Below, piece by piece: positions 6,218 through 44,530 of a stretch of 44,530 nucleotides of DNA; position 1 is the stretch's first letter; every line of letters begins with the position of its first letter. The DNA is from Candidatus Lambdaproteobacteria bacterium RIFOXYD2_FULL_50_16. GTDB lineage: Bacteria; SAR324; XYD2-FULL-50-16. Where the stretch lies: contig MFNE01000008.1 in the NCBI GenBank assembly GCA_001783695.1, forward strand, positions 1 to 44,530, in the 5' to 3' direction. A model generated the notes under the pieces. That model had not been told where the DNA came from. It made no database searches and saw only the letters and a program-made list of their open reading frames with translations. The translations under genes were made by a program, and so were the position numbers.

Positions 6218-6751
6218 TTAGGCAATTGGGGCTTCTGGGTTGACCACCGGTTCAGCATCGCTTTTTAGGGCATCACCTTCTATATGGACGGGGGCGTGCG
6301 CGTTAACTTGGTGCCCGGTCAGTTCATCAAGTCTCGATTTTAATTCAATCTCTTTGCCAAAGGCCGCCGCCATTTGTTCAGCCCAAGCCATCAGTTCATG
6401 CTTGCCGTTTACAAATCCCAGGCACTCGATAATCTGGCGGAGTAGTTTTTTTTCTTCTGGCGAAAATTCTGAATCAGTGGAGGCAGTTAAGACCACTTCT
6501 GAAAAAATGTCCCAAGCCCGAACCGCAGGCAGGCCCACCAGCGGCTTAAAGGGGGACATAAAATAAGCAGAAGACATAGCTTTTTTAATAGCGGTCATAT
6601 CGCTACTGCCAGCCAGCCCTGCTAGGGCCCAAAACAGGATACGCTGTTCGGTTGACTCGACCTTTTTATCCGCCATAACCATCCGCCCAATGGCCTTGTA
6701 AAGCCAGTTGCGCTCTTCTGAATCGAGCTTGGCAATAATGTCTTGTCGCAC
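6218..6751 (-). CDS. TerB-like protein, paralogue 1
   Basis: A 177-residue all-helical protein of the TerB-like superfamily. Residues 1-150 align with the next two genes: ERNWLYKAIGRMVMADKKVESTEQ near the N-terminus, RAWDIFSEVVLTASTDSEFSPEEKKLL in the middle, and IIECLGF. The acidic helix starts AD-KV--TEQ and D-EFSPEE match the paired acidic motifs of TerB folds. The last 30 residues form an Ala/Pro-rich tail absent from the other copies. GTG is the start, preceded by AGAGGAG. It is the third gene of a TerB-like operon. Despite the family name I see no other ter genes, so tellurite resistance is not implied. Confidence 0.75.
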   Translation of the reverse strand: MRQDIIAKLDSEERNWLYKAIGRMVMADKKVESTEQRILFWALAGLAGSSDMTAIKKAMSSAYFMSPFKPLVGLPAVRAWDIFSEVVLTASTDSEFSPEEKKLLRQIIECLGFVNGKHELMAWAEQMAAAFGKEIELKSRLDELTGHQVNAHAPVHIEGDALKSDAEPVVNPEAPIA

Positions 6752-6793
6752 CGTTCTCCTCTAGCTTTTAGCGCCCTTTTTTTTGTTACTTGT

Positions 6794-7249
6794 TTAGGCT
6801 TTTGGTTGGGGAATAATTTGATTTAATCTGACGGCAAACCCGTTTTCAATGGAGTGGGCTTTGGCCATTAATTCTATCCATTGGAAGATGGGTTCACGGC
6901 CTAATTCTGCGAAACCTAGGCAGTCCATAATATTGTTTAAATAGGCTTTTTCTGCCGTAGCCAACCTTGCATCTACTACAGCAGTGCGGACCAATTCAAC
7001 AAACAGGGCCCAAGCCCGCTCTGGCGTGATCTCGCGGGGCGCGGTCAAGGGCCTTGAGAAGGATTCAGAACGCATTAAATCCTGCACGTCCATCATGTCT
7101 AGGCTTCCGGCCAAGGCTTGCATAACCTCGTTAAACTCGTTTTGCTCGGTGTTGTCGAGCCGTTCATCGATCAGCACCAATTTGGCCACCGCCCGGTAGA
7201 GCCAGCCCCGCTGCTCCTCGCTAAGCATTCGCAGTACTTCAATTCGCAT
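6794..7249 (-). CDS. TerB-like protein, paralogue 2
   Basis: A 151-residue helical protein homologous to its two neighbours, with EEQRGWLYRAVAKLVLIDERLDNTEQ, ERAWALFVELVRTAVVDARLATAEK and IMDCLGF. It is the most divergent copy: the motif ADKKVD of the other two is IDERLD here. It starts at ATG 7249, with GAGGTC upstream and 13 nt after the preceding paralogue. A gap of 42 nt separates it from the next. It has no signal peptide or membrane segment and is probably cytoplasmic. Confidence 0.75.
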   Translation of the reverse strand: MRIEVLRMLSEEQRGWLYRAVAKLVLIDERLDNTEQNEFNEVMQALAGSLDMMDVQDLMRSESFSRPLTAPREITPERAWALFVELVRTAVVDARLATAEKAYLNNIMDCLGFAELGREPIFQWIELMAKAHSIENGFAVRLNQIIPQPKA

Positions 7250-7262
7250 CTGACCTCATTGG

Positions 7263-7709
7263 TTAACGTTCAATATAAAGATCAAGGCGGCGGGCGAAGG
7301 CTAATTCCTCACTGCGCAGGTTCACCATTTTTTCGACCCAGCTAAACAGTGCGGCTCTGGCTTCTTTTTTAAATCCCAAGGCGTCCATGATCTGGTTTAA
7401 CAGATCCAACTCCTCTTGCGCTAGTTCAGCGTCACTAACAGCGGTGCGGATTAACTCGGAAAAGATATCCCAAGCCTTGTCGCGCGGGATGTGTTGCATC
7501 GGGGTGAACTTGGCCAGAAAGTCGGCAGACGCCAAGACCCGCTTGGCATCGGCGATTTGGTGTTCATCGGCGATGAGACTAAGGGCATCAAAGAGTTCGG
7601 CCTGCTCGTTAATATCTACCTTTTTGTCGGCCATAATGATCCGGCCAATCGCCTTAAAGAGCCAATTCCGTTGTTCTTGGTCAAGCCGACTGATGATTTG
7701 TCTGCGCAT
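7263..7709 (-). CDS. TerB-like protein, paralogue 3 (first gene of the triplet)
   Basis: A 148-residue helical protein. It shares with paralogue 1 almost the whole motif RNWLFKAIGRIIMADKKVD and with both neighbours the block KAWDIFSELIRTAVSDAEL, then IMDALGF. It is the first gene of the operon, with ATG 7709 and a weak upstream GGGAA. A possible promoter lies in the 112-bp gap upstream (TTGGCA, 17 bp, TAAGCT on the minus strand), but it is weak. The family (TerB/DjlA N-terminal-like) is often found in stress or envelope contexts and the biochemical role is unknown. Confidence 0.75.
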   Translation of the reverse strand: MRRQIISRLDQEQRNWLFKAIGRIIMADKKVDINEQAELFDALSLIADEHQIADAKRVLASADFLAKFTPMQHIPRDKAWDIFSELIRTAVSDAELAQEELDLLNQIMDALGFKKEARAALFSWVEKMVNLRSEELAFARRLDLYIER

Positions 7710-31792: not shown

Positions 31793-31835
31793 AGAACCAA
31801 CGCTCAAGCAAAGCATATTGAGTCGAGCCAAGCCT

Positions 31836-32471
31836 ATGAACGATCAAGCGATTCGCACCTCAAACCTAGACCGATTGGTTGAACATATCAAGTCGGAAGG
31901 GATAGAACAGGCCCACCGCGAGGCGGCCTTGATCTTGGCCCAAGCAGAAGAAGAACGCTCTCGAATCTTAGACGAGGCCCAAAAACAGGCAGACGCCTTA
32001 ATCGAAGCCAGTGCCCAAAAGGTGTTAAAAGCCGAGCAGGCCATGACCCAACGACTCAAGATGGCCGGGCGCGACTTGGTTTTGTCTTTAGAAGAGGAAT
32101 TGGTTAAACGGCTCCAGAGTTTTTTAGCACTAAAGTTGGCAGAACCCCTAAATACGGCAGACCTAAAAGACTTTATACTGGCCTTGGCCCAAGGTTTTTC
32201 TGGCCAAGGGCCTTTAAATTTGGAAGTAACCCTTCCTCCTGAGGTTTTGACCCGTTTTGAAACCAGCCTGATCGAGGCCTTTAAATCCAGCCTTGCACAA
32301 GATATCAAGCTCAAAGGGGACCCAAAGATAGGGGCTGGTTTATTGATTTGTGAACAAGGTTCTGACTTCTTTTTTGACTTTAGCGCAAACCGGTTGGCCC
32401 AGTGGTTAGCGGGCCATGCAGGGCCTCGTCTCAAGGAACTCTTTGAGCAGGGCGAGGAGCCTAGTCCGTGA
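31836..32471 (+). CDS. atpE: V-type ATP synthase subunit E
   Basis: A 211-residue peripheral-stalk subunit. The N-terminal half is a long helix rich in Ala, Glu and Lys (EQAHREAALILAQAEEERSRILDEAQKQADALIEA), as in E subunits; the C-terminal half is a mixed alpha/beta cap. ATG 31836 is chosen over TTG 31818, which would only add six residues; neither has a strong ribosome binding site. It is the first gene of the seven-gene V-ATPase operon and overlaps the DUF2764 gene by 4 bp (GTGA). Confidence 0.88.
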   Translation: MNDQAIRTSNLDRLVEHIKSEGIEQAHREAALILAQAEEERSRILDEAQKQADALIEASAQKVLKAEQAMTQRLKMAGRDLVLSLEEELVKRLQSFLALKLAEPLNTADLKDFILALAQGFSGQGPLNLEVTLPPEVLTRFETSLIEAFKSSLAQDIKLKGDPKIGAGLLICEQGSDFFFDFSANRLAQWLAGHAGPRLKELFEQGEEPSP

Positions 32472-32995
32472 GTATCCCTTATCTTTTAGCTAGTTTGCCA
32501 CCGCTACAGTTTGAAGAACCAGCTCCCCTAAGTCAGGCCGAGTTTTTAGAAACCTGCGAAGTCTTACCTCCGGGCCAGCACGCGATTTTAGAAAATATTT
32601 TAAATCACCAGCCTGGGGATTTCGGGGTTGAAGCCTACCGGCAATATTTGGATTTTAAGTGGGGACTCGACCACGAACTGGTTCTTTTAAGGGCCCGTCA
32701 GTTAGGGCTTAGCGAACTAGAAGTGCTGTCGCTCGAACCCTTCCCAGAGGCCCCCTTGCCCCAAGCGGGCGATATCTTAAATGCCCATGACCCCCTAGAG
32801 GCGGAAATACTGCGGCTTCATATGCTTTGGGAGCGGGTCAACCTACTTGAGCCCGCCTGTTTACTCAATTTTAGCCAGCTAGTACTTTATACGATCAAGC
32901 TGAGTTTAATATTTAGAAAGGATCATTTTGACCCAGAACGAGGGACCCAAAAACTTAGCCAAGTTTTAGCACAATTAAGTGAGGGGGTCTTATGA
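32468..32995 (+). CDS. DUF2764 protein, V-ATPase-associated
   Basis: A 175-residue protein in the place held by the unnamed gene of spirochaetal and chlamydial V-ATPase operons (from memory, BB0095 in Borrelia and CT309 in Chlamydia). The DUF2764 start is recognisable: YLLASLPPLQFEEPAPLSQAEFL. The remainder is helical (EAYRQYLDFKWGLDHELVLLRARQLG; ILRLHMLWERVNLLEP). No canonical C/d subunit is in the operon, and an all-helical protein at this position is a reasonable candidate for that role. This is inference. GTG start, coupled to atpE; its stop overlaps the atpA start by 4 bp (ATGA). Confidence 0.8.
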   Translation: MSIPYLLASLPPLQFEEPAPLSQAEFLETCEVLPPGQHAILENILNHQPGDFGVEAYRQYLDFKWGLDHELVLLRARQLGLSELEVLSLEPFPEAPLPQAGDILNAHDPLEAEILRLHMLWERVNLLEPACLLNFSQLVLYTIKLSLIFRKDHFDPERGTQKLSQVLAQLSEGVL

Positions 32996-34731
32996 GTGCG
33001 CAAGGAAGGGTTGAGGGGATCAACGGAAACTTGGTCAAATGCCGCTTTAGTGGGGCGGTGATGCAAAACGAGATTGGTTATGTGCGGACCGAGGGTAAGT
33101 TGTTAAAGGGGGAGGTGATCCGTATTAAAGGCGAGATGGCCGAGTTACAGATCTTTGAAGACACCAAAGGTGTAGGCCGGGGGGACTCGGTTGAGTTCAC
33201 TGGAGCCTTGCTTTCGGCCCAATTGGGCCCTGGGCTTCTAGGTAAGCTCTTTGATGGTTTGCAAAATCCCTTAAACCGTTTGGCTGAAGAAAAGGGCTTT
33301 TTTACGCCCAGAGGTTATCAAATCCCGGCCTTAGAGCCTAGCGATTCCTGGGATTTTACCCCTAAAACCAAGCCCGGTGCAAAGGTTTTGGCCGGGGATT
33401 TGTTAGGCGAGGTGCCCGAGGGGCAGATCAACCATAAAATTATGGTCCCCTTTTTTTTAAAGGGCACTTGGAGCGTTATTCATATAAATCCCGCCGGGAA
33501 ATACCGCCTTGATCAGCCGATTGGCGAGTTGCTGGGGCCCGAGGGACAGAAACATGAGTTGACCCTTTCCTTCTTTTGGCCCGTAAAAAATGCCATTAAG
33601 TTTTATCAAGAACGCCTCGCTCCTAACGAACCTTTGGTCACCCAAGTGCGGATCGTGGATGGCCTTTTTCCGGTCGCCAAGGGTGGCACTTACTGCATTC
33701 CTGGCCCTTTTGGCGCGGGGAAAACGGTTTTGCAACAAATCACAAGTCGATACGCCGAAGTGGACGTGGTGATTCTTGCAGCTTGTGGCGAGCGGGCCAA
33801 TGAGGTGGTGGAGACGATCAAGGAATTTCCAGGCCTTAAGGACCCAAAAACCGGGCGCAGTCTGATGGAGCGCACCATTATTATTTGCAATACCAGCAGT
33901 ATGCCCGTAGCCGCTCGCGAATCCTCGGTTTATACCGCCGTTACCCTGGGGGAATACTACCGGATGATGGGCCTTGATGTGTTGCTCCTCGCCGACTCCA
34001 CCAGCCGCTGGGCCCAAGCACTGCGCGAACGCAGTGGGCGCTTGGAGGAGATCCCTGGCGAAGAGGCCTTTCCCGCCTATTTAGAATCAATGATTGCCGG
34101 ATTTTACGAGCGCGCTGGGAGGGTAAGATTGCGCTCAGGAGGCTTAGGTAGCCTGACCATCGGTGGCACCGTTAGCCCAGCTGGGGGTAACTTCGAGGAG
34201 CCGGTGACTAAAGCCACTTTAAAAGTGGTGGGAGCTTTCCACGCGCTTTCTCGCGAACGCTCTGATGCTCGCCGTTTCCCAGCAATTGACCCTTTAGAAT
34301 CTTGGTCTAAATACCAAGGGATCATCCCCAATTCCCGTCGCTTGGGCATGTCCAATCTATTAAAAACTGCTAACGAAATTGGGCAAATGATGAAGGTAGT
34401 GGGCGAAGAGGGGACTAGTATTGAGGACTATATTACTTTCCTTAAAGGTGAGTTTTTTGACGCCGCCTATTTGCAACAAAATGCCTTTGATGAGGTGGAC
34501 GCGGCCACCGATCAAGACCGTCAAGAAGAGGCCTTTGCTTTGAGTGAAGCTTTAATTAAACAAACCTTTATATTTGAAGACAAAGAAAGCGCTCGGCAAT
34601 ATTTTGCCAAATTGCGGCACCGGTATTTTGATTTAAATTGCACCAAAAGACCAAGCGAGGCCTATGAAAAAGGGCGGCAATCCATCTTGGAAACCTTAAA
34701 AAAGGGAGGCCAAGATGGAGCGGATTTATAA
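32992..34731 (+). CDS. atpA: V-type ATP synthase catalytic subunit A
   Basis: A 579-residue catalytic subunit. The N-terminal beta barrel (residues 1-70) is followed by the V-type insertion ([21 protein letters not shown]). The P-loop is GPFGAGKT at 238-245 (Lys244). The catalytic glutamate region is [10 protein letters not shown], then [33 protein letters not shown]. The P-loop has GAG where many A subunits have GCG. The length is typical. It overlaps atpB by 17 bp. Confidence 0.96.
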
Positions 34732-36028
34732 CCATATTCTGCAAATCGCCGGTAACGTGATTATGGTAGAGGCAGAGGGGCCAAAGTTTGCCGAGCTAGC
34801 CGAGGTGGAATCGGCCCATGGAAAAAGTCTGGCCGAGGTGATCCGTATTGATGGAGAAAAGGTATATTTGCAGGTTTTCGGCGGAACCGCCGGGGTCGCG
34901 ACGAATGACCGGCTCCAATTTTTAGGGCACCAAATGCAGGTTCCCTTTAGTGGCGCCTTGCTGGGGCGAATCTTTGATGGCAAAGGAGAACCCAGAGATA
35001 GTGGGCCAGGGCTTAAAGACCATTTAATCGAAACCGCCGGGCCCTGTATTAACCCGGCGACCAGGGTGATGCCTAGTAAGATGATCCGCACCGGTATCCC
35101 AATGATAGATGTTTTTAACTCGCTAGTGGAGGCACAAAAAATTTCCATTTTTTCCGGTTCTGGCGAGCCCCATAATCAACTGCTCGCCCGCATCGCGCTC
35201 CAGGCGGAAGTGGACGTGATTGTGCTCGGATGTATGGGAGTGTTATATGACGATTACCTTTTTTTTAAAGAAGAACTCGAAAGTTCAGACGCCATTAACC
35301 GGGCCGTCTTGTTTGTCCACACGGCCGCCGATCCGGTGGTAGAGTCTTTAAAGGTTCCTGACTTGGCCTTGGCCGTAGCCGAAAAATTTGCCATTGAAGG
35401 CAAACGGGTTTTGACCTTGCTAACAGACATGACCAACTTTGCCGATGCCTTGAAGGAAATTGCTATTGTCATGGAGCAGGTGCCTTCAAACCGGGGATAT
35501 CCAGGTGATCTATATACCCAACTGGCCCAACGATACGAAAAAGCCGCCGACTTCGAAGGCGCGGGCTCTTTGACTTTGCTTTCGGTGACCACCATGCCCG
35601 CCGGCGACGTAACCCATCCAGTGCCGGATAATACGGGCTATATCACTGAAGGCCAATACTATTTGGCAGGAGGCCGGATTGAGCCCTTTGGGTCTTTATC
35701 GCGCCTAAAACAGTTGGTTAATAAGGAGACAAGGTCCGACCACCGAGGGTTGATGGATGCGTTGATTCAACTTTATGCCGCCTTTAAGGAGGCATTAGAG
35801 AAGCGGGCCATGGGTTTTAAAATGAGCCCTTGGGATCAAAAACTCTTAAAATATGGCGATCTTTTTGAGGCAAAGTTGATGAACCTGGAGGTCAATATCA
35901 CCCTTGAGGAGGCCTTGGACCAGTCTTGGGCTATTTTAGCTGAATGTTTCGAACCGGAAGAAACGCGGCTAAAAACCGAATTAATTGAGACCTATTGGCC
36001 AAAAGCAGGGCATCATGGCTCAACTTAA
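34715..36028 (+). CDS. atpB: V-type ATP synthase subunit B
   Basis: A 437-residue non-catalytic nucleotide-binding subunit. It has [51 protein letters not shown] (the P-loop is replaced by SGSGEPHN, as usual in B), [16 protein letters not shown] and [21 protein letters not shown] 34715 is preceded by GGAGG. The gene overlaps atpA by 17 bp and atpD by 14 bp, typical of translational coupling that sets subunit ratios. Confidence 0.96.
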
Positions 36029-36620
36029 ACTTACTAAAACTGAATTAAAAACGCAAAAGGACCGACTCAAGGCCTATCGCCGATTTTTGCCCACCTTGCA
36101 GGTTAAAAAACAATTATTACAAAAAGAAATACTGCTCGCGCGTGCGACACTAGAGTACGCCCAGGCTGAACTAGCGACCTTAGAGGATGAGGTTAAACCC
36201 TGGATTGCTTGTTTTGGAGAAGAGGCAGATTGGGAAAGTTTAATTAAGATTGAGGAGTTGGTGACCCACACCGAATCCATAGCAGGTATCGAAATTCGCC
36301 GATTTGAGGCAATTAAAATAAAGATTTCGCCTTATAATTTGTATATCGTCCCCTTGTGGGTGGATGGGGCTTTAGAGATTATCGAGCGGTTTTTAAAATC
36401 CACTTTTAAAGCGCGACTGGCCGAAGAGGCCATGAGGCGATTGCAAGCAGAATTAACGGTGACCACCCAGCGGGTCAACCTCTTTGAAAAGGTAAAAATA
36501 CCAGAGGCTAAGCTAGCGATTAATAAAATCACCACCTATTTAGACGATCAAGCCCGAGTGGCGGTGGGTTGGGCGCGGGGGGCAAAGAAAAAATTGGCCC
36601 AAGCGGCGGAGGGCCTATGA
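36015..36620 (+). CDS. atpD: V-type ATP synthase subunit D
   Basis: A 201-residue central-stalk (rotor axle) subunit: two long helices, with [36 protein letters not shown] at the N-terminus and [27 protein letters not shown] near the C-terminus; the latter is the signature of subunit D. I chose ATG 36015 (AQLKLTK), not the earlier 35985 codon that lies deeper in atpB. It overlaps the atpI start by 4 bp (ATGA). Subunit F, which normally binds D, is not encoded in the operon. Confidence 0.93.
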
Positions 36621-38425
36621 TTGAGACTATGAAACGGGTAAGTTTGGTCTTCCCAGCTAAACACAAAGAGCGGGCGCTGCGCCAACTGCAAGAGGTGGGG
36701 CTAATGCATTTAGATCAGCCCCAAGAGTTGCCTCGCCAAGATTGGGCCTTGGGGCTGAGTCAAGCGACCCGCGCTCTGGCGCTGTTTGATCCAGAGCTTC
36801 CAGTTAAAGGCCCCTGGTATCCCAAAGAGGGTAAGGCGAGGATGTTGCGGATTTTGCAGCTTGAAAAACGCCTTTTAGTGACTAGACAAAAAATTCAACT
36901 AAACCAACGCGAGGCGGAGGCAGTTTTGCCTTTTGGCGGATTTTCTTTAGAATCTATCGCCGCCTTAAAAGAAGCCGGTTGGGGTTTGAGCCTTTACCGG
37001 TTGCGGGAGAAGGATTTAGCCTTGATCGATCAAGAAGAGTACTGGTTCCCCCTATTTGAAGAAAACCACCAAAAGGTGATTGCGCTTTTTAGCCCTGCCC
37101 AAAATCCTTATCCTAATATTAATCGTCGCCGATTGCCTCACCACAATTGGGAAGAATTACAAACAATAATAGCTGAAGAAAAAGCGCGGGAAACCAAAAT
37201 GCGCCGGGAATTGGACCATCTACTCACTGAATCGGCCCCTATTTTAGCCTATAAAAGAGAGCTTGAAAATAACCAAAACTTTGAAAAGGCCCAGCTTATT
37301 TTAGGGGCGGCAGAAGGTTTGGGATATATTCGGGGGTATTGCCCGATCTCCCTTTTGCCGGGGCTTGAGGCCTTGGCTAAGCGAGGCAATTACGCCTTAT
37401 TAGAAGAAGAGGCAGACCCAAGCCTTGCGCCTACTAAACTTAAACAAAATCGGTTTTCTGAACTCTTTCGCCCTATTCTTAATTTTATTGGAGTGTTGCC
37501 TGGATACAGCGAACCCGAAGGGGGGGGCGTGTTTATGGTTTTTTTTGCGGTCTTTTTTGCGATGCTGGTGGGGGACGCGGGATACGGGCTGGTAATGTTG
37601 TTTGGTACCTTGGCCTACAAGGGGCTGGCCAAAAATACGCCTGCCCAAATTGTGCCTTTGTTTATTTTATTGGCCTTGACAACTACGGCTTGGGGCGCAG
37701 TGACAGGGTTGTGGTTTGGGGTCAAAGAAGCGCTGGCAATCCAGGTGCTTGCGGCGATGGTGATCCCTGAGTTGTCTGCCTGGGCTGCGGACTCGACGGG
37801 GCTGGTGATCCGGCTATGTTTTTTGATAGGTCTTGGGCAACTGGGGTTGGCGCATTTGTGGCAAATGGTGCGGCTCCAGTCTTGGTACGCCAAAGGGGCG
37901 GAGTTGGGATGGTTTTTGTTGGTCTTCGCCCTTTATTATTTGGCGCTCTATTTTGTGCTAGGAGAAGCAATGCCCCATTTTGTAATGCCGCTGATTGAGT
38001 TGTCTTTGGCCTTGGTATTGATCTTTAGTGAGCAAGGTCAAGGTCGGAGCTTTATCAAAGGGTTGGGCTGGGGGCTGGCCCAATTTCCAGTAAACTTGCT
38101 TAATGCGATCAGCAATTTTTCAGATTTGGTGTCTTATATAAGACTGTTTGCGGTCGGGCTGGCGACCCAACAAATGGCGGTCACCTTTAACGGGCTGGCT
38201 TTGAGTTTGGGTACTGAATCAATCTGGGCTTGGGCTGGGATGATCTTAATTTTACTTCTAGGCCACAGTGTAAATATAATGTTGGCCGCTATTGCGGTAA
38301 TGGTGCATGCGATTCGCTTAAACTTTTTAGAATTCTCCAAACATTTAGGACTCCAATGGACAGGCCAAGCCTACGCCCCTTTTAAGATGTTACAGGGACA
38401 TTTTAGAGGTTTGCCAGGTCGTTAA
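36617..38425 (+). CDS. atpI: V-type ATP synthase subunit I (a-type stator)
   Basis: A 602-residue subunit. The cytoplasmic N-terminal half opens KRVSLVFPAKHKERALRQLQEVGLMHLD and carries coiled regions; the membrane half (from about residue 290) has seven or eight helices. The conserved GDAGYGLVMLF follows the first helix, and SNFSDLVSYIRLFAVGLA carries the essential Arg of the ion path. ATG 36617 is coupled to the atpD stop; the earlier codon at 36569 would make an extension inside atpD. The 339-bp gap before atpK sets it apart from the proteolipid gene. Confidence 0.94.
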   Translation: MIETMKRVSLVFPAKHKERALRQLQEVGLMHLDQPQELPRQDWALGLSQATRALALFDPELPVKGPWYPKEGKARMLRILQLEKRLLVTRQKIQLNQREAEAVLPFGGFSLESIAALKEAGWGLSLYRLREKDLALIDQEEYWFPLFEENHQKVIALFSPAQNPYPNINRRRLPHHNWEELQTIIAEEKARETKMRRELDHLLTESAPILAYKRELENNQNFEKAQLILGAAEGLGYIRGYCPISLLPGLEALAKRGNYALLEEEADPSLAPTKLKQNRFSELFRPILNFIGVLPGYSEPEGGGVFMVFFAVFFAMLVGDAGYGLVMLFGTLAYKGLAKNTPAQIVPLFILLALTTTAWGAVTGLWFGVKEALAIQVLAAMVIPELSAWAADSTGLVIRLCFLIGLGQLGLAHLWQMVRLQSWYAKGAELGWFLLVFALYYLALYFVLGEAMPHFVMPLIELSLALVLIFSEQGQGRSFIKGLGWGLAQFPVNLLNAISNFSDLVSYIRLFAVGLATQQMAVTFNGLALSLGTESIWAWAGMILILLLGHSVNIMLAAIAVMVHAIRLNFLEFSKHLGLQWTGQAYAPFKMLQGHFRGLPGR

Positions 38426-38764
38426 ATGGCCATATTTCGAAAAATCTGGGTAAACCGTTAAAATAGGTGAATAAAATAAAAAAGACAGCCGATGTTGAAT
38501 TATTAACAGAGATTTTATGTATTGATAATTTACTGAAATATAAATAGCATCAGGCGCAGAATTAGCGGGTTTTTGGTTGAGTACCAATTTTAACTTTAAT
38601 GAGGTGCTATGAATCAGGATTTATCGGCATGGTTTGTGACGGTCCAGTAAGGGGGAATTTGGATAATTTGATGTTTTAGAGGTTGTTAAGAGGGAATTTA
38701 GCGGGTTTGGTAGGTTAACGAGGTTAATTGGTTGCAAATTTGGCAAAAGGGCCAGGAGGACAAC
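38426..38764 (+). promoter_or_regulatory. AT-richer gap with candidate atpK promoter and leader
   Basis: This 339-bp gap inside the V-ATPase operon is visibly richer in A and T than the flanking genes. TTAACA, 17 bp, TAATTT and TTGATA, 17 bp, TAGCAT are overlapping candidate promoters within about 38498-38555. A 13-codon open frame (38609-38650, MNQDLSAWFVTVQ) has a GAGG upstream and could be a leader peptide. No strong hairpin was seen. An internal promoter would allow the extra proteolipid synthesis needed for a ring of K subunits; this is inference. Confidence 0.4.
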
Positions 38765-39208
38765 ATGGATTTACTACATAGTTTTGGGGCAGGCGCCTAC
38801 GTCATGGCCCTCACCTTAGCCGCTCTGGGTAGCGCCTTGGGAACCGGGACTACGGGCATGGCGGCGGTCGGCGCATGGCGTAAGTCTTTTTTAAAAGGCA
38901 AAGCCGCCCCCTTTATTTTAGTCGCCTTCGCCTCGGCCCCGCTCTCCCAAACGATTTATGGGATGATCCTAATGAACGCCATTGCCCAAGCACCTGATAC
39001 CGTTGATCCCATGGCCAAACTGATGACCGGCTTCTGGGGCGGCCTCGCGATCGGTGTCTCCGCTTGGTACCAGGGCAAAGCCGGGGCCATGGCTTGCGAC
39101 GCGTTAGTCGATACCAACAAAGGCTTGGGCAACTATATCATGGTCTTAGGCATCATCGAAACCGTCGCCCTCTTTGTGATGGTGTTCTTGATGACCAATT
39201 TGAAGTAA
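38765..39208 (+). CDS. atpK: V-type ATP synthase subunit K (proteolipid)
   Basis: A 147-residue proteolipid with four membrane helices (two hairpins) that form the membrane rotor ring. The second-hairpin ion carrier is Glu132 in LGIIETVALF. Gln103 (YQGKAG) and Ser61-Gln62 (PLSQTIYG) stand where Enterococcus hirae NtpK has its Na+ ligands Gln110, Thr64 and Gln65; the Gln-to-Glu spacing of 29 residues is the same. This favours sodium transport but does not prove it. ATG 38765 has a strong AGGAGG; the upstream in-frame codon at 38732 lies before that site and is not used. Confidence 0.93.
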   Translation: MDLLHSFGAGAYVMALTLAALGSALGTGTTGMAAVGAWRKSFLKGKAAPFILVAFASAPLSQTIYGMILMNAIAQAPDTVDPMAKLMTGFWGGLAIGVSAWYQGKAGAMACDALVDTNKGLGNYIMVLGIIETVALFVMVFLMTNLK

Positions 39209-39327: not shown

Positions 39328-40347
39328 ATGAAGGCATGGGTGACGGCGGTGACGGCATTGTTGGTGGCATCTTGCACAGGGACTCAGGAGCGGGTGGTGC
39401 AATCTCCAAACTATCGCGACGGGGAATTTCGCAATCTTTATCACGATCTGGAAGCGGAAAAGTTAGGGTTTTGGACCGCCCTAAAATCGCTGAAATTGGG
39501 CAAGCAAGAGCCTTGGCCCGAGTGGCGCGAGACGCCTAGTTTCAAGCCCCAATGGGCCAAATTGGAAGGGTCTGCCGGAGAGGTGGTGCTTTTGGGGCAC
39601 GCCAGTGTACTGGTGCGTTTTGAAGGGCTAAATATTTTAATTGATCCCCATTACTCGTTGCGTGCCTCGCCCCTACCTTTTGGCCCAGCCAAACGGGCAA
39701 GGGCTAATGCGATTGCCTTTGAGGACCTGCCGCCGATTGATCTGGTGCTGATCACCCACGACCACTTCGACCATTTGGACCTGCCTACCCTAAAACGCCT
39801 CGCTCAAACGCACCACCCTCGTTTTGTGGCCGGCTTAGGACATCAAGCACTATTATCCGATATAGGCATCACCGATTTAATCGAACTCGATTGGTGGGAA
39901 ACCCTTGAATACCAAGGGGCTGGCATCCACTTTTTGCCAGCCCAACACTTTAGCTCCCGCTCGATTTTATCGCGCAAACAACGGCTTTGGGGCAGCTTTT
40001 TAATCGAAAAAAAGGGCAAAAAAATCTACCACGCTGGTGACACTGCCATCGGGCCGCATTTTAAGTTGATTGGCGAGCGGTTGGGCCCGATTGACTTGAG
40101 TTTAATCCCTATTGGGGCTTACGCGCCACGGGATTTTATGAGGCATTTTCATTTAGATCCCCCAGAAGCGGTAGCGGCTCATTTGGAATTAAATTCGAAA
40201 AAAAGTTTGGCTATGCATTATGGTTTTTTTATGCTCACCCTAGAGGGCATCGACCAGCCGCTAGAGGCTTTCGCACTGGCCCGCCAAACGCTTTCTCAAC
40301 CTGAATCCTTCTTAGCCCCGCCTTACGGGGAGTTGGTCGCCTTTTGA
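39328..40347 (+). CDS. Metallo-beta-lactamase-fold lipoprotein
   Basis: A 339-residue protein with a lipoprotein signal (LLVASC, acylated Cys16), so it is exported and membrane-tethered. The MBL hydrolase core has GHASVLVRFEGLNILIDP, the zinc motif THDHFDHLD (His144, His146, Asp148, His149), the His in AQHFSSR, HAGDTAIG, and the final His in LAMHYGFF. The pattern, with a trailing YGFFMLTLEG, resembles the NAPE-PLD/UlaG-like branch rather than beta-lactamases; the substrate is unknown. It has a perfect ribosome binding site AGGAGGTGAC. Most known members are cytoplasmic, so the lipobox is unusual. Confidence 0.88.
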   Translation: MKAWVTAVTALLVASCTGTQERVVQSPNYRDGEFRNLYHDLEAEKLGFWTALKSLKLGKQEPWPEWRETPSFKPQWAKLEGSAGEVVLLGHASVLVRFEGLNILIDPHYSLRASPLPFGPAKRARANAIAFEDLPPIDLVLITHDHFDHLDLPTLKRLAQTHHPRFVAGLGHQALLSDIGITDLIELDWWETLEYQGAGIHFLPAQHFSSRSILSRKQRLWGSFLIEKKGKKIYHAGDTAIGPHFKLIGERLGPIDLSLIPIGAYAPRDFMRHFHLDPPEAVAAHLELNSKKSLAMHYGFFMLTLEGIDQPLEAFALARQTLSQPESFLAPPYGELVAF

Positions 40348-40402: not shown

Positions 40403-40624
40403 GCTTGTGAACCGAGCGATTTTATGAGGCATTTTTATTTAAGCCCCTCAGAGAGGGCGGCGGCTCATTTGGGATTAAATTTTTTAAACCCCGTTTACCC
40501 AGCATTATGGGGCTTTTATCCCTATCCTAGAAGGGATCGGCAGCCGCTAGAGGCTTTCGCTGGTCTGTCTAACGTTCCCTCACCCTTCTACACCCTGCCC
40601 TATGGGCAGCAGGTCCCCTTCTAA
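40403..40624 (+). pseudogene. Degenerate tandem copy of the 3' end of the MBL lipoprotein gene
   Basis: This stretch reads as a diverged copy of 40117-40347, offset by 286 bp and 9 bp shorter. Shared blocks in the same frame are DFMRHF, then AAHLGLN (AAHLELN in the parent), QPLEAFA, and the ending LPYGQQVPF (PPYGELVAF). Several stretches are nucleotide-identical (GATTTTATGAGGCATTTT; CAGCCGCTAGAGGCTTTCGC). It lacks the whole catalytic part and an upstream start of its own. A stop precedes it in frame, and the key His of LAMHYGFF is lost (PALWGFY). I read it as a partial tandem duplication that is decaying; the frame remains open for 66 codons from ATG 40424. Confidence 0.8.
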
Positions 40625-40879: not shown

Positions 40880-43591
40880 GTGAAAATACTATCCCGACTA
40901 CCACTGGTTATTTTGATTTTGGCTTTTTGGCCTGGGTCTTCCTTTGCGCAGGATTTGGCCGGGGTCGAGCCTTTGTTTATGCGGTGGGACCCCAAAACCA
41001 ACCAGACCGACCTCTATCTCCTCCTGTACAATAACACCGACGAAGTCATTCGCTATGCGGGTCAAGTGGAGATGTCGAGTGGGCAATTCCAAAAAAAGGT
41101 GACCTTCGATTTGCCCTTTGACTTAGACAAGGGAGAACGGACGATTAAGGTAAAAATCCCAATGACCACTTTTGGCGGCGGGAACTACATCTTGATTGGT
41201 GGAGACTACCTTGTCCTTTCGATGCGGTTGTTTGACGCCAAAAGTGGGGCCTTGGCTGCCGAAAGTTCTAAGTATCAACTAATCATCCCATCAGAACAGA
41301 CCAGTACAGGGCTGCCTCGGCCAACCAAGCCTTGGACCTTATTGTTTGGCGCTGAACCTGAAGAGGTGGCCAAGATATTAACTATGCCTTTTAAAAGGCC
41401 CGACTTGAGTACACTCACCCCGGCTGACTTGAATCAAAAAGTGGTCTGGCAAGCATTAGGGGACTCGGCTCCCTGGGATAAAAAGCTGCTTAAAAGTGTA
41501 AGCCCGATCGCTGGGGCAAAGGGAATTGATCTGCGACCTACCTTCCAGATTACCTTCACCGAGGCGCTTGAGCCTGCAAGTTTGTCCCAAGAACGGGTTA
41601 AGTTGGTGGCGCGAGGTGGAAAAACTAAGGACCAAGAAGTTCCTTTGGCGTTTGATTTAAACAAAGACCAACTTTTGGTCCGACCTAAGGTGGACCTGGA
41701 GGGCTTGACTCAATACCGAGTTAGTATTGACGAGGGTTTTGTTGGAGTTTCGGGGAATCACAACAAGTCAAGAAGCTGGGTGTTTACCACCAAAGAGGAA
41801 GAGATTGTTTTGGAGGTGAGTGGGACCAGCCCTAAAAACGGCGAGATTGATATCCCGGTGAAGTTGGCCGTTAGCCTATTGTTAAGCCAGCCCCCTAATC
41901 CCAAAAGTATCGATAAAAACAAGGTGCGCCTGATGTTAGGCGAGCAACCTGTAGAAGGGAAACTCCTCCTTCGAGGCGATCAATTGATGTTTTTGCCTAA
42001 AGCGCCCCTTTTTAACGAAACTTATTATTACTTTGTATTAGACGGGATCACCGACCTCAAGGGGAGAACTCTTAAACAGGCTTATAGCTTTGGTTTTACG
42101 ACGGAAAAGCAGCATCGTGAGATCCCATTATTAGAAATCGCCAGTATGTACCCAGCCAACCGCACCCGCGACGTAGGGGTGGATTCGGAAATCTGGGTTC
42201 GCTTTAAGCAAAAGATCGATCCTGCAACTATGACTGAAAGTGCGGCTATACTTGAAGCCGATGGGCAGCCGGTGGCCGGGAAGTGGGTTTTAGAGGACGA
42301 CCGAATTCGATTTAAGCCCGAGGCCGAATTACTGTACAATAAAAAGTACCTGGTTCGGGTCACCGAAGCCTTGAAAAATTTGGATGGGGGCGGTCTGAGG
42401 AAAGAGGCGGGCTGGGCATTTATCACCCGTAACAAGGTCGATTACCCAGACCACTTGGACGAAAACGCGCTGATTTTTAGTCCTAGTCACGAGATGGACT
42501 CCTATGTATTAGCCAAAAAGGGGGTCCTCAAAATAGGGGTGACCACCTTCGAACCGATCGAGCAGGTGGATATCAACGGGAAAATGATTAAGGTTCCCAA
42601 AGAAACGCAGATCGAATTTGACTTCCCATACGAGTTAAGCCAGCGAACCACAAAATTCGACGTCTCGGTCGTTACGGATGCAGGATTGGCGAAGAAGTCT
42701 TTTACCATCCATTTAGGAGCTAAAGAGGAAGGAGCAAGCTTTAAACTGATCAATATCCTAGCCGTAAGTATTATAGATAACATCAACAACAAAGCCAAAG
42801 ACGCCACCCACGACGCCGCGACCAAAGAGTCGATTACCATCGTTCCCCAGTTTACTTACCGGTTTTCCAAAGAACATGCGGTAGGTATGAAAGGGATTGT
42901 GCTCCGCGAGAAATATACCAATAAAGCGTATCTTTCCAAAGAAGTAAGCTATACGCAATTGGCTTTTGACTGGGATTGGTCCGATACCTGGGCAGGAAAA
43001 ATGACCAATGCTATCGGATGGAACGATATACGCACTCAAAATGATAAATTGACCCTAGGTACCAACAAGTTATTGGCCGAAACCTTTTGGTCGATAACCT
43101 TAGACCAACCTTGGGACAAAGAGACCGGACTCAAGCAAAAGCTTGAGATAAAAAACAAAAACGCAGTGGCCAAAGCGGCGAAAATAGACGACGAAACCGA
43201 CGCGCAAGAGACAAACCTGACCCTGACCTTTAAAACTAATCTTTGGAACTTAGGAACCCAGTTTGAGGTTCAAAACACCCAAAACCAAGCAGTTGGCAAA
43301 AATCAGGATTTTACAGCCATAAAAGGTTCGTTTAAAATATCAGATAAATGGGGGCCTGTTAGCCCAAGTTTTAAAGCGGATACTAGCATAAAAGACTTTA
43401 ATATATTAAACTCAACCACTGGGATCAAACAAAAAGATGTGGTCACCAACTACCAACTTAAGGCGACCATGACCGGTTGGTTTAAAATCGTTTTTGGGGC
43501 GGATTACAAACTTAAAAAACAAACTAGCAATCTAGTGGGGTCAACCTACGACGTAGGCACCTCTACCTTGAACGCGACCTATATTTGGTAA
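40880..43591 (+). CDS. Exported protein with three Big_5 (Ig-like) domains and a C-terminal barrel-like region
   Basis: A 903-residue protein with a signal peptide (ILSRLPLVILILAFWPGSSFAQ). An N-terminal beta-rich region (25-195) is followed by three Big_5/SbsA Ig-like repeats at about 205-310, 313-412 and 418-520. Each has the pattern P..G..DI/DVG....I...F...ids..SI, then a late FTT-type strand (SWVFTT, FGFTT, WAFIT). Another beta domain lies at 530-620. From about 625 to the end, alternating amphipathic strands with many Trp and Tyr, ending in aromatic YIW, look like an outer-membrane barrel of about 10-14 strands. I infer an outer-membrane protein with periplasmic or surface Ig domains. 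The start is GTG with no clear ribosome binding site. The FecR gene follows 4 nt later. Confidence 0.75.
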   Translation: MKILSRLPLVILILAFWPGSSFAQDLAGVEPLFMRWDPKTNQTDLYLLLYNNTDEVIRYAGQVEMSSGQFQKKVTFDLPFDLDKGERTIKVKIPMTTFGGGNYILIGGDYLVLSMRLFDAKSGALAAESSKYQLIIPSEQTSTGLPRPTKPWTLLFGAEPEEVAKILTMPFKRPDLSTLTPADLNQKVVWQALGDSAPWDKKLLKSVSPIAGAKGIDLRPTFQITFTEALEPASLSQERVKLVARGGKTKDQEVPLAFDLNKDQLLVRPKVDLEGLTQYRVSIDEGFVGVSGNHNKSRSWVFTTKEEEIVLEVSGTSPKNGEIDIPVKLAVSLLLSQPPNPKSIDKNKVRLMLGEQPVEGKLLLRGDQLMFLPKAPLFNETYYYFVLDGITDLKGRTLKQAYSFGFTTEKQHREIPLLEIASMYPANRTRDVGVDSEIWVRFKQKIDPATMTESAAILEADGQPVAGKWVLEDDRIRFKPEAELLYNKKYLVRVTEALKNLDGGGLRKEAGWAFITRNKVDYPDHLDENALIFSPSHEMDSYVLAKKGVLKIGVTTFEPIEQVDINGKMIKVPKETQIEFDFPYELSQRTTKFDVSVVTDAGLAKKSFTIHLGAKEEGASFKLINILAVSIIDNINNKAKDATHDAATKESITIVPQFTYRFSKEHAVGMKGIVLREKYTNKAYLSKEVSYTQLAFDWDWSDTWAGKMTNAIGWNDIRTQNDKLTLGTNKLLAETFWSITLDQPWDKETGLKQKLEIKNKNAVAKAAKIDDETDAQETNLTLTFKTNLWNLGTQFEVQNTQNQAVGKNQDFTAIKGSFKISDKWGPVSPSFKADTSIKDFNILNSTTGIKQKDVVTNYQLKATMTGWFKIVFGADYKLKKQTSNLVGSTYDVGTSTLNATYIW

Positions 43592-43595
43592 CCTG

Positions 43596-44530
43596 ATGAA
43601 GCGTTTTAACCTACTTATACTGATTTTAAGCTTTGCGTTGGTGCTGCCGTCTGCGCCCTTATTTGCAGCAGCAGACCAACCGGCGGGGGTTATGACGGTT
43701 GAAAAAGGGAATATCAAGGTTAGGCGAAATAACAAGGATACCATTTACAAAACCCCTGGAGAAAAGGTTGACCTCTTTAACGGGGATTCGCTACAGACCG
43801 GGGCCAATTCAGAGGCCAAGGTCTTTATTCACTCGAAGGGCGACGAGATTGTCCTTTATTCAAACAGCTTTTTAGGGGTGGAAGACGTTTCTGGCGACAA
43901 GCGGGACTTTAATATGCCTATTGGTAAGGCCCATTTTAAAGTAAAGCCCTTGGCGGTGCCGCTGCCTGCTGGAGCTAAGCGGCCTTTTATGGTTAAAACG
44001 GTCAACGCCTTGGTTGGGGTCAAAGGTACCGAGTTTGTTTTGGGTACGGGGGCCGAAACCACCAGCTTGCTTACCCTAGAAGGCGCGGTCACCATGGCCA
44101 ACGTCGATAGCCCTGGGGTCGAGGTGGTGGTCGCAGAGAATCAGGCTAGTCAAATCACGAAAGCGGACCCTCCGACAGCACCGGTTAAATTGAGCCCAGC
44201 GGCCGTCCAACAGATTATGACTACCGATTCGCCCCAAGCCTTTAACGCGGTTAAATTCGGTGCGCCTGTGACCGATACCGGTGAGAAGAAGGCTGATAAA
44301 AAAGAGGAAAAGAAAGAAGAGAAGAAGGAAGAGAAGAAGGAAGAAAAGAAAGAAGAGAAGAAACAGGAAGAAAAAAAGCAAGAAGCTAAAAAAGAAGAAG
44401 CTAAACCTGGCGACAAAAAGGAAGCTAAAGCTGATGCAAAGCCCCTGGCCAAAGAGGAAGCTAAAGCTGATGCCAAAGGGGACCCGAAAGCTGGGCCTGC
44501 TGCCAAAGCCGAAGGCCCTGCCGGGGATAA
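43596..44530 (+). CDS. FecR-domain protein with Lys/Glu-rich tail (3' end beyond window)
   Basis: At least 311 residues, running off the window. It has a signal peptide (FNLLILILSFALVLPSAPLFAA), then a FecR-type beta domain at about 30-190: GVMTVEKGNIKVRR, GDSLQTGANSEAKVFI, and the FecR core TVNALVGVKGTEFVLG. From residue 230 the chain is low-complexity, with KEEK and AKAD repeats. FecR domains here are extracytoplasmic beta-solenoid or scaffold-like modules and do not imply an iron sigma-factor system. Only 4 nt separate it from the barrel gene, so the two are co-transcribed. Confidence 0.85.
   Translation, partial: MKRFNLLILILSFALVLPSAPLFAAADQPAGVMTVEKGNIKVRRNNKDTIYKTPGEKVDLFNGDSLQTGANSEAKVFIHSKGDEIVLYSNSFLGVEDVSGDKRDFNMPIGKAHFKVKPLAVPLPAGAKRPFMVKTVNALVGVKGTEFVLGTGAETTSLLTLEGAVTMANVDSPGVEVVVAENQASQITKADPPTAPVKLSPAAVQQIMTTDSPQAFNAVKFGAPVTDTGEKKADKKEEKKEEKKEEKKEEKKEEKKQEEKKQEAKKEEAKPGDKKEAKADAKPLAKEEAKADAKGDPKAGPAAKAEGPAGD
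44283..44405 (+). repeat. Purine-rich low-complexity repeat inside the FecR-protein gene
   Basis: An almost pure A/G tract built from irregular GAAGAGAAGAAG-type units, encoding Lys-Glu repeats. It is prone to length change and strand asymmetry (very G/A-rich on the plus strand). Confidence 0.85.

Follow-up and report, generated by a model that had tools for sequence, protein, structure and literature searches.

Background

The Slam proteins of type XI secretion (DUF560) are reported (PMC5449769) to combine a predicted 14-stranded barrel with an N-terminal domain in the periplasm; a gene with a lipobox adjoins about half of the putative Slam genes (185 of 353, ~52%). RcsF is described as a lipoprotein threaded through outer-membrane proteins in a membrane-spanning complex (PMC4942254), and the Leptospira proteins Lsa33, with a FecR domain, and Lsa25, with DUF1566, as surface adhesins (PMC3444417). 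Here we describe a pair of adjoining genes, at positions 40880-44530 of a 44,530-nucleotide stretch of DNA (the window) from Candidatus Lambdaproteobacteria bacterium RIFOXYD2_FULL_50_16 of the phylum SAR324, which encode a predicted outer-membrane beta-barrel protein and a FecR-domain protein. Together with a variable lipoprotein gene lying just beyond the window, they form a cassette that may represent a mechanism, not described before, for keeping binding proteins at the cell surface.

Judged by sequence, the cassette is akin to Slam-type systems in logic and is not a member of them. It shares with Slam a predicted 14-stranded C-terminal barrel, an N-terminal side that loop lengths in our model would place in the periplasm, and a lipoprotein gene nearby. 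Unlike Slam, it gives no DUF560-type match, either in 45 barrel modules at E 0.1 or in the full 903 aa window protein at E 1, and it carries Big_5 and Ig-like domains where Slam has TPR; the window protein has Big_5 only, and of six relatives scanned one (L076) has Sel1 repeats before the barrel. The cassette also has a FecR gene beside the barrel gene, in 41 of 42 loci, and its lipoproteins share an N-terminal domain, whereas Slam cargo is reported to share a C-terminal barrel.

The 14-stranded monomeric porins OmpG and CymA resemble the cassette barrel in fold, but it is only 6-11% identical to them in the VIA-align rows and has extra Ig-like domains, expected to be periplasmic, as well as FecR and lipoprotein gene partners. 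In FecI-FecR-FecA signalling, too, a FecR domain adjoins an outer-membrane barrel; the cassette barrel, however, has 14 predicted strands, scans of the window protein and of the 45 barrel modules gave no match to a TonB-receptor or plug domain, no sigma factor was found among those neighbours that were scanned, and the FecR protein has, by eye, no inner-membrane helix after its signal peptide. Both domain kinds of Lsa33 and Lsa25 recur in the cassette with weak NCBIfam matches of 31.7 and 30.1 bits, far under the cut-offs of 420 and 260 bits. The likeness to RcsF would lie in a complex of lipoprotein and outer-membrane barrel; in the cassette, tethering would fall to a distinct protein, FecR, whose threading is conjectural. 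In full-text literature searching, with most subscription papers out of reach, we found no description of the cassette, in keeping with a sequence-only reading of the window that had not recognised a described system, and the word FecR is absent from the main text of two SAR324 genome papers (PMC9031357, PMC8364033) and a MotAB survey (PMC12505986).

Results

The window comprises bases 1-44530 of a 56,971-base contig (C8) in a genome of 3.14 Mb, and a run of 160 N, an assembly gap, opens one base past the window end, inside the FecR gene. The features of the cassette are as follows.

40880-43591, + strand: barrel gene, 903 aa, with signal peptide (by eye only), N-terminal domain, three Big_5 domains, Ig-like domain and predicted 14-strand barrel (ORF, Pfam, AlphaFold2)
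41492-42427, + strand: three Big_5 Ig-like domains (three Pfam stretches, the best at residues 419-516; the first start, at about residue 205, is estimated from match ranges)
42470-42715, + strand: Ig-like domain ahead of the barrel, residues 531-612, expected to be periplasmic (AlphaFold2; seen in relatives)
42740-43585, + strand: predicted 14-stranded outer-membrane beta-barrel, residues 621-902 (AlphaFold2, Foldseek, VIA-align)
43596-44530, + strand: FecR-domain gene, interrupted by the window end and assembly gap; no lipobox by eye (ORF, Pfam)
43788-44090, + strand: FecR domain, PF04773 (Pfam)
44250-44528, + strand: beginning of a variable charged tether, which resumes past the gap at C8 44691-44905, stop codon included, and ends in the strand VTIEVVH
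C8:44902-48573: lipoprotein ORF, beyond the window

Conservation of the barrel-FecR pair

From 58 genomes we took the 52 loci whose match extends into the C-terminal module, namely that of the window (L009) and L038-L088; a profile made from them converged at 56 proteins. L069, which matches the Ig domain alone (profile positions 1-87), was excluded from the pair counts, and in nine loci (L044, L058, L060, L063, L065, L068, L072, L077 and L085) the contig ends in or just past the barrel, leaving 42 loci with room downstream; L055 and L064, with the barrel split over two frames, were each counted once, via the nearer piece. A FecR gene lies downstream on the same strand in 41 of the 42, at gaps of -26 to +277 nt, and the window's genome, which holds eight FecR matches in 3.14 Mb, has it beside three of three close copies of the barrel gene. 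The linkage is strong and is no accident. It bears out the sequence-only reading, which had looked to co-occurrence in relatives; the FecR gene begins 4 nt past the barrel gene, as that reading had it, and its ORF, open at the window end, runs on into the gap.

All 41 paired loci belong to SAR324. Across the phylum set searched (52 genomes, G000-G051) a 45-row profile has a match in 44 genomes at E 0.001, several being short or weak and many covering the Ig part only. A search of 296 genomes of three other phyla gave no match (0/291, 0/4 and 0/1); as there was no positive control in those phyla, this limits wider occurrence without excluding it. The nearest named relative, Candidatus Lambdaproteobacteria RIFOXYD2_FULL_56_26 (L093), is 49% identical over the barrel module and has each of the three genes in full. 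A contig scan with two peptide patterns, which reaches near relatives only and may omit the window's own genome, yielded 12 loci, which bear the names SAR324, Lambdaproteobacteria, Deltaproteobacteria or simply 'bacterium'. A distant relative of the barrel in the window's genome (L091, 14483-16756) has a FecR gene directly upstream instead of downstream, at a gap of 0 nt.

The FecR protein and its terminal strand

The second ORF matches the FecR domain at 34.7 bits (cut-off 24). Past the gap, in another frame, the protein resumes as a Gly/Asp/Phe-rich stretch, GADFEGGADFGGDFGGDF...QVVTIEVVH-stop, whose end resembles the tail of a relative (L043, ...QPVQIVITH). Contig ends truncate nine of the 41 partner FecR genes, the frame of L078 closes prematurely and the gap interrupts that of the window; the other 30 proteins and the window's post-gap tail give 31 tails. 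An alternation of hydrophobic residues (hydrophobic-x-hydrophobic-x-hydrophobic) occurs within the last 12 residues of 30 of these 31, and within the last eight of 29. The same pattern is present in 66 of 3798 overlapping windows of the tether, a hydrophobic-poor and hence weak control, in 54 of 328 other genes (38 within the last eight residues) and in one of six FecR proteins that are not partners of a barrel (none within the last eight).

Ahead of the strand, the tail behind the FecR domain measures 36-528 residues (28 loci, L009 and L078 left out), though the domain match in L057 is short and makes its value too high. The net charge of the tail is negative in 23 of 27 loci (again without L009 and L078). 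Only some members begin the tail with a Lys/Glu block; in L040, L048 and L076, which lack it, Lys and Arg make up just 1-2% of the tail. The conserved feature of the tail is thus its C-terminal strand and not its Lys/Glu composition. The suggestion of the sequence-only reading that a Lys/Glu tail binds lipid or peptidoglycan was dropped because that composition is not conserved; the tails are mostly acidic and what they keep is the terminal strand.

The barrel protein

Big_5 (PF13205) matches three stretches of the 903 aa protein with 142.1 bits (E 1.2e-41, cut-off 23.6), and for the module of ~375 residues that follows Pfam is empty in the window's copy; among 45 barrel modules there are weak matches to Porin_4 in 20 and to BBP2_2 in nine, and none to an autotransporter barrel domain (type Va). 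A search of solved structures with the barrel profile gave just weak matches, two 'Major outer membrane protein' chains (E 0.002). The best of five AlphaFold2 models of residues 517-903, made from 12 sequences, has a pLDDT of 82.0 and a pTM of 0.62 (the remaining four, pLDDT 66.0-73.1) and predicts an Ig-like domain at about residues 531-612 followed by 14 long strands at 621-902. Foldseek ranks OmpG top (E 1e-7), and eleven CymA/OmpG rows of VIA-align have Z 17.5-19.1 and rmsd 4.0-4.6 over 230-273 aligned residues. The claim of a C-terminal barrel at residues 625-903 therefore agrees with structure prediction, and the three N-terminal Ig-like domains that went with it are the three Big_5 stretches, to which the model adds a fourth Ig-like domain adjoining the barrel on its N-terminal side.

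Since the predicted strand number is even, the loops are shorter at the N-terminal end of strand 1 (mean ~4 residues, against ~8 at the opposite end) and the linker from the Ig domain to strand 1 is ~8 residues, we expect the Ig domains at the N-terminus to be periplasmic. Ig domains at the surface are unlikely on the same grounds. The inward faces of the barrel are slightly positive on average (net +4.7, 45 sequences).

The lipoprotein

The gene that usually stands behind FecR encodes a lipoprotein, and in the window's genome the FecR stop codon overlaps the earliest possible start of its ORF. Its members have ~150 residues after the lipidated Cys in common and end in modules that are of the Lcl_C type in the window's genome and LamG, Big_2, Big_5, beta-helix, GLUG or RCC1 elsewhere. 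Pfam, run on 20 N-terminal stretches, has no family in more than three, and those named are module types of the variable part; a solved-structure search with the lipoprotein profile likewise has its better matches (Lig and other proteins) in the variable part, at positions 165-228, with one weak nanobody match at 126-201. A lipobox is present in 20 of 21 sequences examined, most of which were chosen from 32 downstream genes for a visible lipobox and so provide no independent test, and none has Asp at +2.

The profile detects a lipoprotein near 28 of the 41 barrel-FecR pairs, mostly directly downstream. In L051, L059 and L064 its gene precedes that of the barrel instead, and in L045 it is displaced downstream by one gene. 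Among the 13 pairs with no match, eight have contigs that end inside FecR (L054, L056, L061, L066, L067, L074, L075 and L082). The profile is found in 27 of the 52 phylum genomes, in one (G018) through the variable part only. A small gene after the window's lipoprotein (L009 8637-9140, C8:48636-49139) resembles, by eye, its C-terminal Lcl_C domain and falls in the same BLAST cluster as the lipoprotein.

Co-divergence of the three genes

Pairwise distances of the barrel module correlate with those of the lipoprotein domain at r 0.92 (26 loci) and with those of FecR at r 0.69 (the same 26 loci) or 0.76 (38 loci); for FecR and lipoprotein r is 0.58. Length filters had removed three of 41 pairs and two of 28 trios, and none of 2000 shuffles reached these correlations.

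Discussion

We favour the reading, to which we would give a probability of roughly 0.45, that the trio encodes a complex for anchoring or displaying surface lipoproteins, of which the window's two genes would be two thirds and in which the lipoprotein is probably an adhesin. An OmpG/CymA-like barrel would span the outer membrane, its Ig-like domains facing the periplasm. The FecR protein would be periplasmic and consist of a head, a flexible, mostly acidic tether of varying length and the conserved terminal beta-strand, and the lipoprotein would be anchored via its lipid, its conserved N-terminal domain docking on the complex and its C-terminal binding modules being exchangeable. The FecR head may bind the periplasmic Ig domain of the barrel, while the tether, possibly passing through the barrel, would present the terminal strand to a partner, either the lipoprotein N-domain or the barrel Ig domain; addition of the strand to a beta-edge there would lock the surface protein to the periplasm. 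The genes, their order and co-occurrence, the strand pattern kept at the FecR C-terminus and the domain common to the lipoproteins are observed. The barrel fold is a prediction, and the assembly of a complex, the identity of the partner that takes up the strand, the tether's path through the barrel, exposure at the surface and adhesion are inferred. RcsF and the Leptospira adhesins Lsa33 and Lsa25 offer precedents, the first for threading through outer-membrane proteins and the others for FecR-domain and DUF1566 proteins at the surface.

Several observations weigh against this proposal. One barrel locus (L050) has no FecR, and one tail of 31 (L070) has no terminal strand; the tails are moreover mutually related and not independent, and the tether windows are a weak control. 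In four loci (L071, L073, L076 and L083) the fetched stretch would have space for such a lipoprotein and holds none, and a fifth (L049) with room has only a truncated upstream ORF that by eye resembles the window's lipoprotein. The parallel divergence of the genes owes something to common species history, and the nearest relatives of barrel and FecR agree in just 17 of 38 loci. Threading finds no support in covariation of lumen charge with tail charge (rho -0.20, P 0.30, 29 loci). The structure predictions are of single chains, and the AlphaFold2 model of FecR (L093, eight sequences) is uninformative at pLDDT 39 and was not used, so that the strand may instead dock on its own head.

The main rival, which we consider somewhat unlikely, is that the barrel is a translocon analogous to Slam, which exports the lipoprotein encoded next to it to the surface, with FecR as periplasmic chaperone or escort. 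It gains from the 14 predicted strands and periplasmic N-terminal side, from the lipoprotein near 28 of 41 pairs, which recalls the frequent lipobox gene beside Slam (PMC5449769), and from the Sel1 repeats of L076. The ten residues after the lipidated Cys carry a mean net charge of -2.1 (n=20), against -0.7 in 33 lipobox-like proteins of the same loci (P 0.0015), a loose control set that repeats some families and includes clear non-lipoproteins. In Bacteroidota, acidic residues after the lipidated Cys act as surface-export signals. The 45 modules nevertheless yield no DUF560-type match, the lipoprotein Pfam scans, which took in whole proteins for seven only, name no shared cargo barrel, and a translocon leaves FecR and its terminal strand unexplained. 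That strand is equally unaccounted for if the cassette serves nutrient uptake, with the lipoprotein capturing glycans or other ligands, the barrel admitting them and FecR as periplasmic sensor or binding part; the nearest folds, the cyclodextrin porin CymA and OmpG, and the lectin-like LamG modules of the L043 lipoprotein speak for such a role, which we regard as unlikely, given that the neighbours scanned (a part of the whole) include no sigma factor, TonB-dependent receptor or sugar-catabolism family and that the lipoprotein modules are highly diverse in an otherwise constant set.

FecR domains are beta structures, and their edges could accept a strand. The FecR strand might accordingly fold back on its own domain or merely dimerise, barrel and FecR forming a static envelope scaffold, much as the sequence-only reading had it but with no lipid bound by the tail; the poor FecR model does not speak against this. 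A tether of 36-528 residues would be odd for docking in cis, however, and the pattern is present in only one of six non-partner FecR proteins, so we hold this to be decidedly unlikely. The boldest form of the anchoring proposal, in which the FecR tether is threaded through the barrel and donates its strand to the surface lipoprotein adhesin, with a MotA/MotB-like motor moving or tensioning the adhesins in some genera, appears to us very improbable.

Neighbouring genes

Three genera of another family (g9, g18, g25) contribute 11 loci in which a member of a MotB-like gene cluster stands directly before the barrel gene, ending 4-19 nt before it or overlapping it by 11-98 nt. Members of this cluster are 522-523 aa long (broken in L079), and the sole other locus, L045, has its member elsewhere. 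The gene clusters with MotA/ExbB genes and a third family at the same loci; Pfam, in the one locus scanned (L053), finds MotB_plug and OmpA, MotA_ExbB, and weak MgtE_N and FliG_M. The block before the barrel gene occupies, for example, L053 8575-12729 and L084 8200-12409, with nine similar loci, and in a phylum-wide MotB_plug search these loci account for the broken match of G038 and for the ten whose open frames measure 522-529 aa. As a general feature of the cassette these genes were rejected: they accompany a single paralogue group, confined to three genera, and none of the three copies in the window's genome has them. A flagellar role for these MotA/MotB-like stators is possible, because the phylum is reported to carry flagellar genes (PMC9031357).

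In scans for regulatory sites, promoter-like sites numbered 7 against 8.1 expected and terminator-like sites 18 against 11.9 expected (sd 3.9), and, the assembly gap aside, none of the latter separates the three genes on the + strand. Elsewhere in the window, a short ORF at 40424-40624 resembles the C-terminal end of the upstream metallo-beta-lactamase-fold gene at 39328-40347 (41% over 70 columns) and looks like a decayed partial duplicate. A V/A-type ATPase gene cluster occupies 31818-39208, where 36569-38425 matches V_ATPase_I (Pfam) and other subunits were assigned by eye, and three consecutive genes at 6218-7709, of 177, 151 and 148 aa, look by eye like mutual paralogues.

Conclusion

Little is known of the cell surface of SAR324, a phylum that is widespread and uncultured. 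The cassette described here recurs through it, often in several copies, and its exchangeable binding modules would tell how the cells attach to particles or partners. The strand that ends the FecR tether, whose length varies freely, offers a clear, testable contact.

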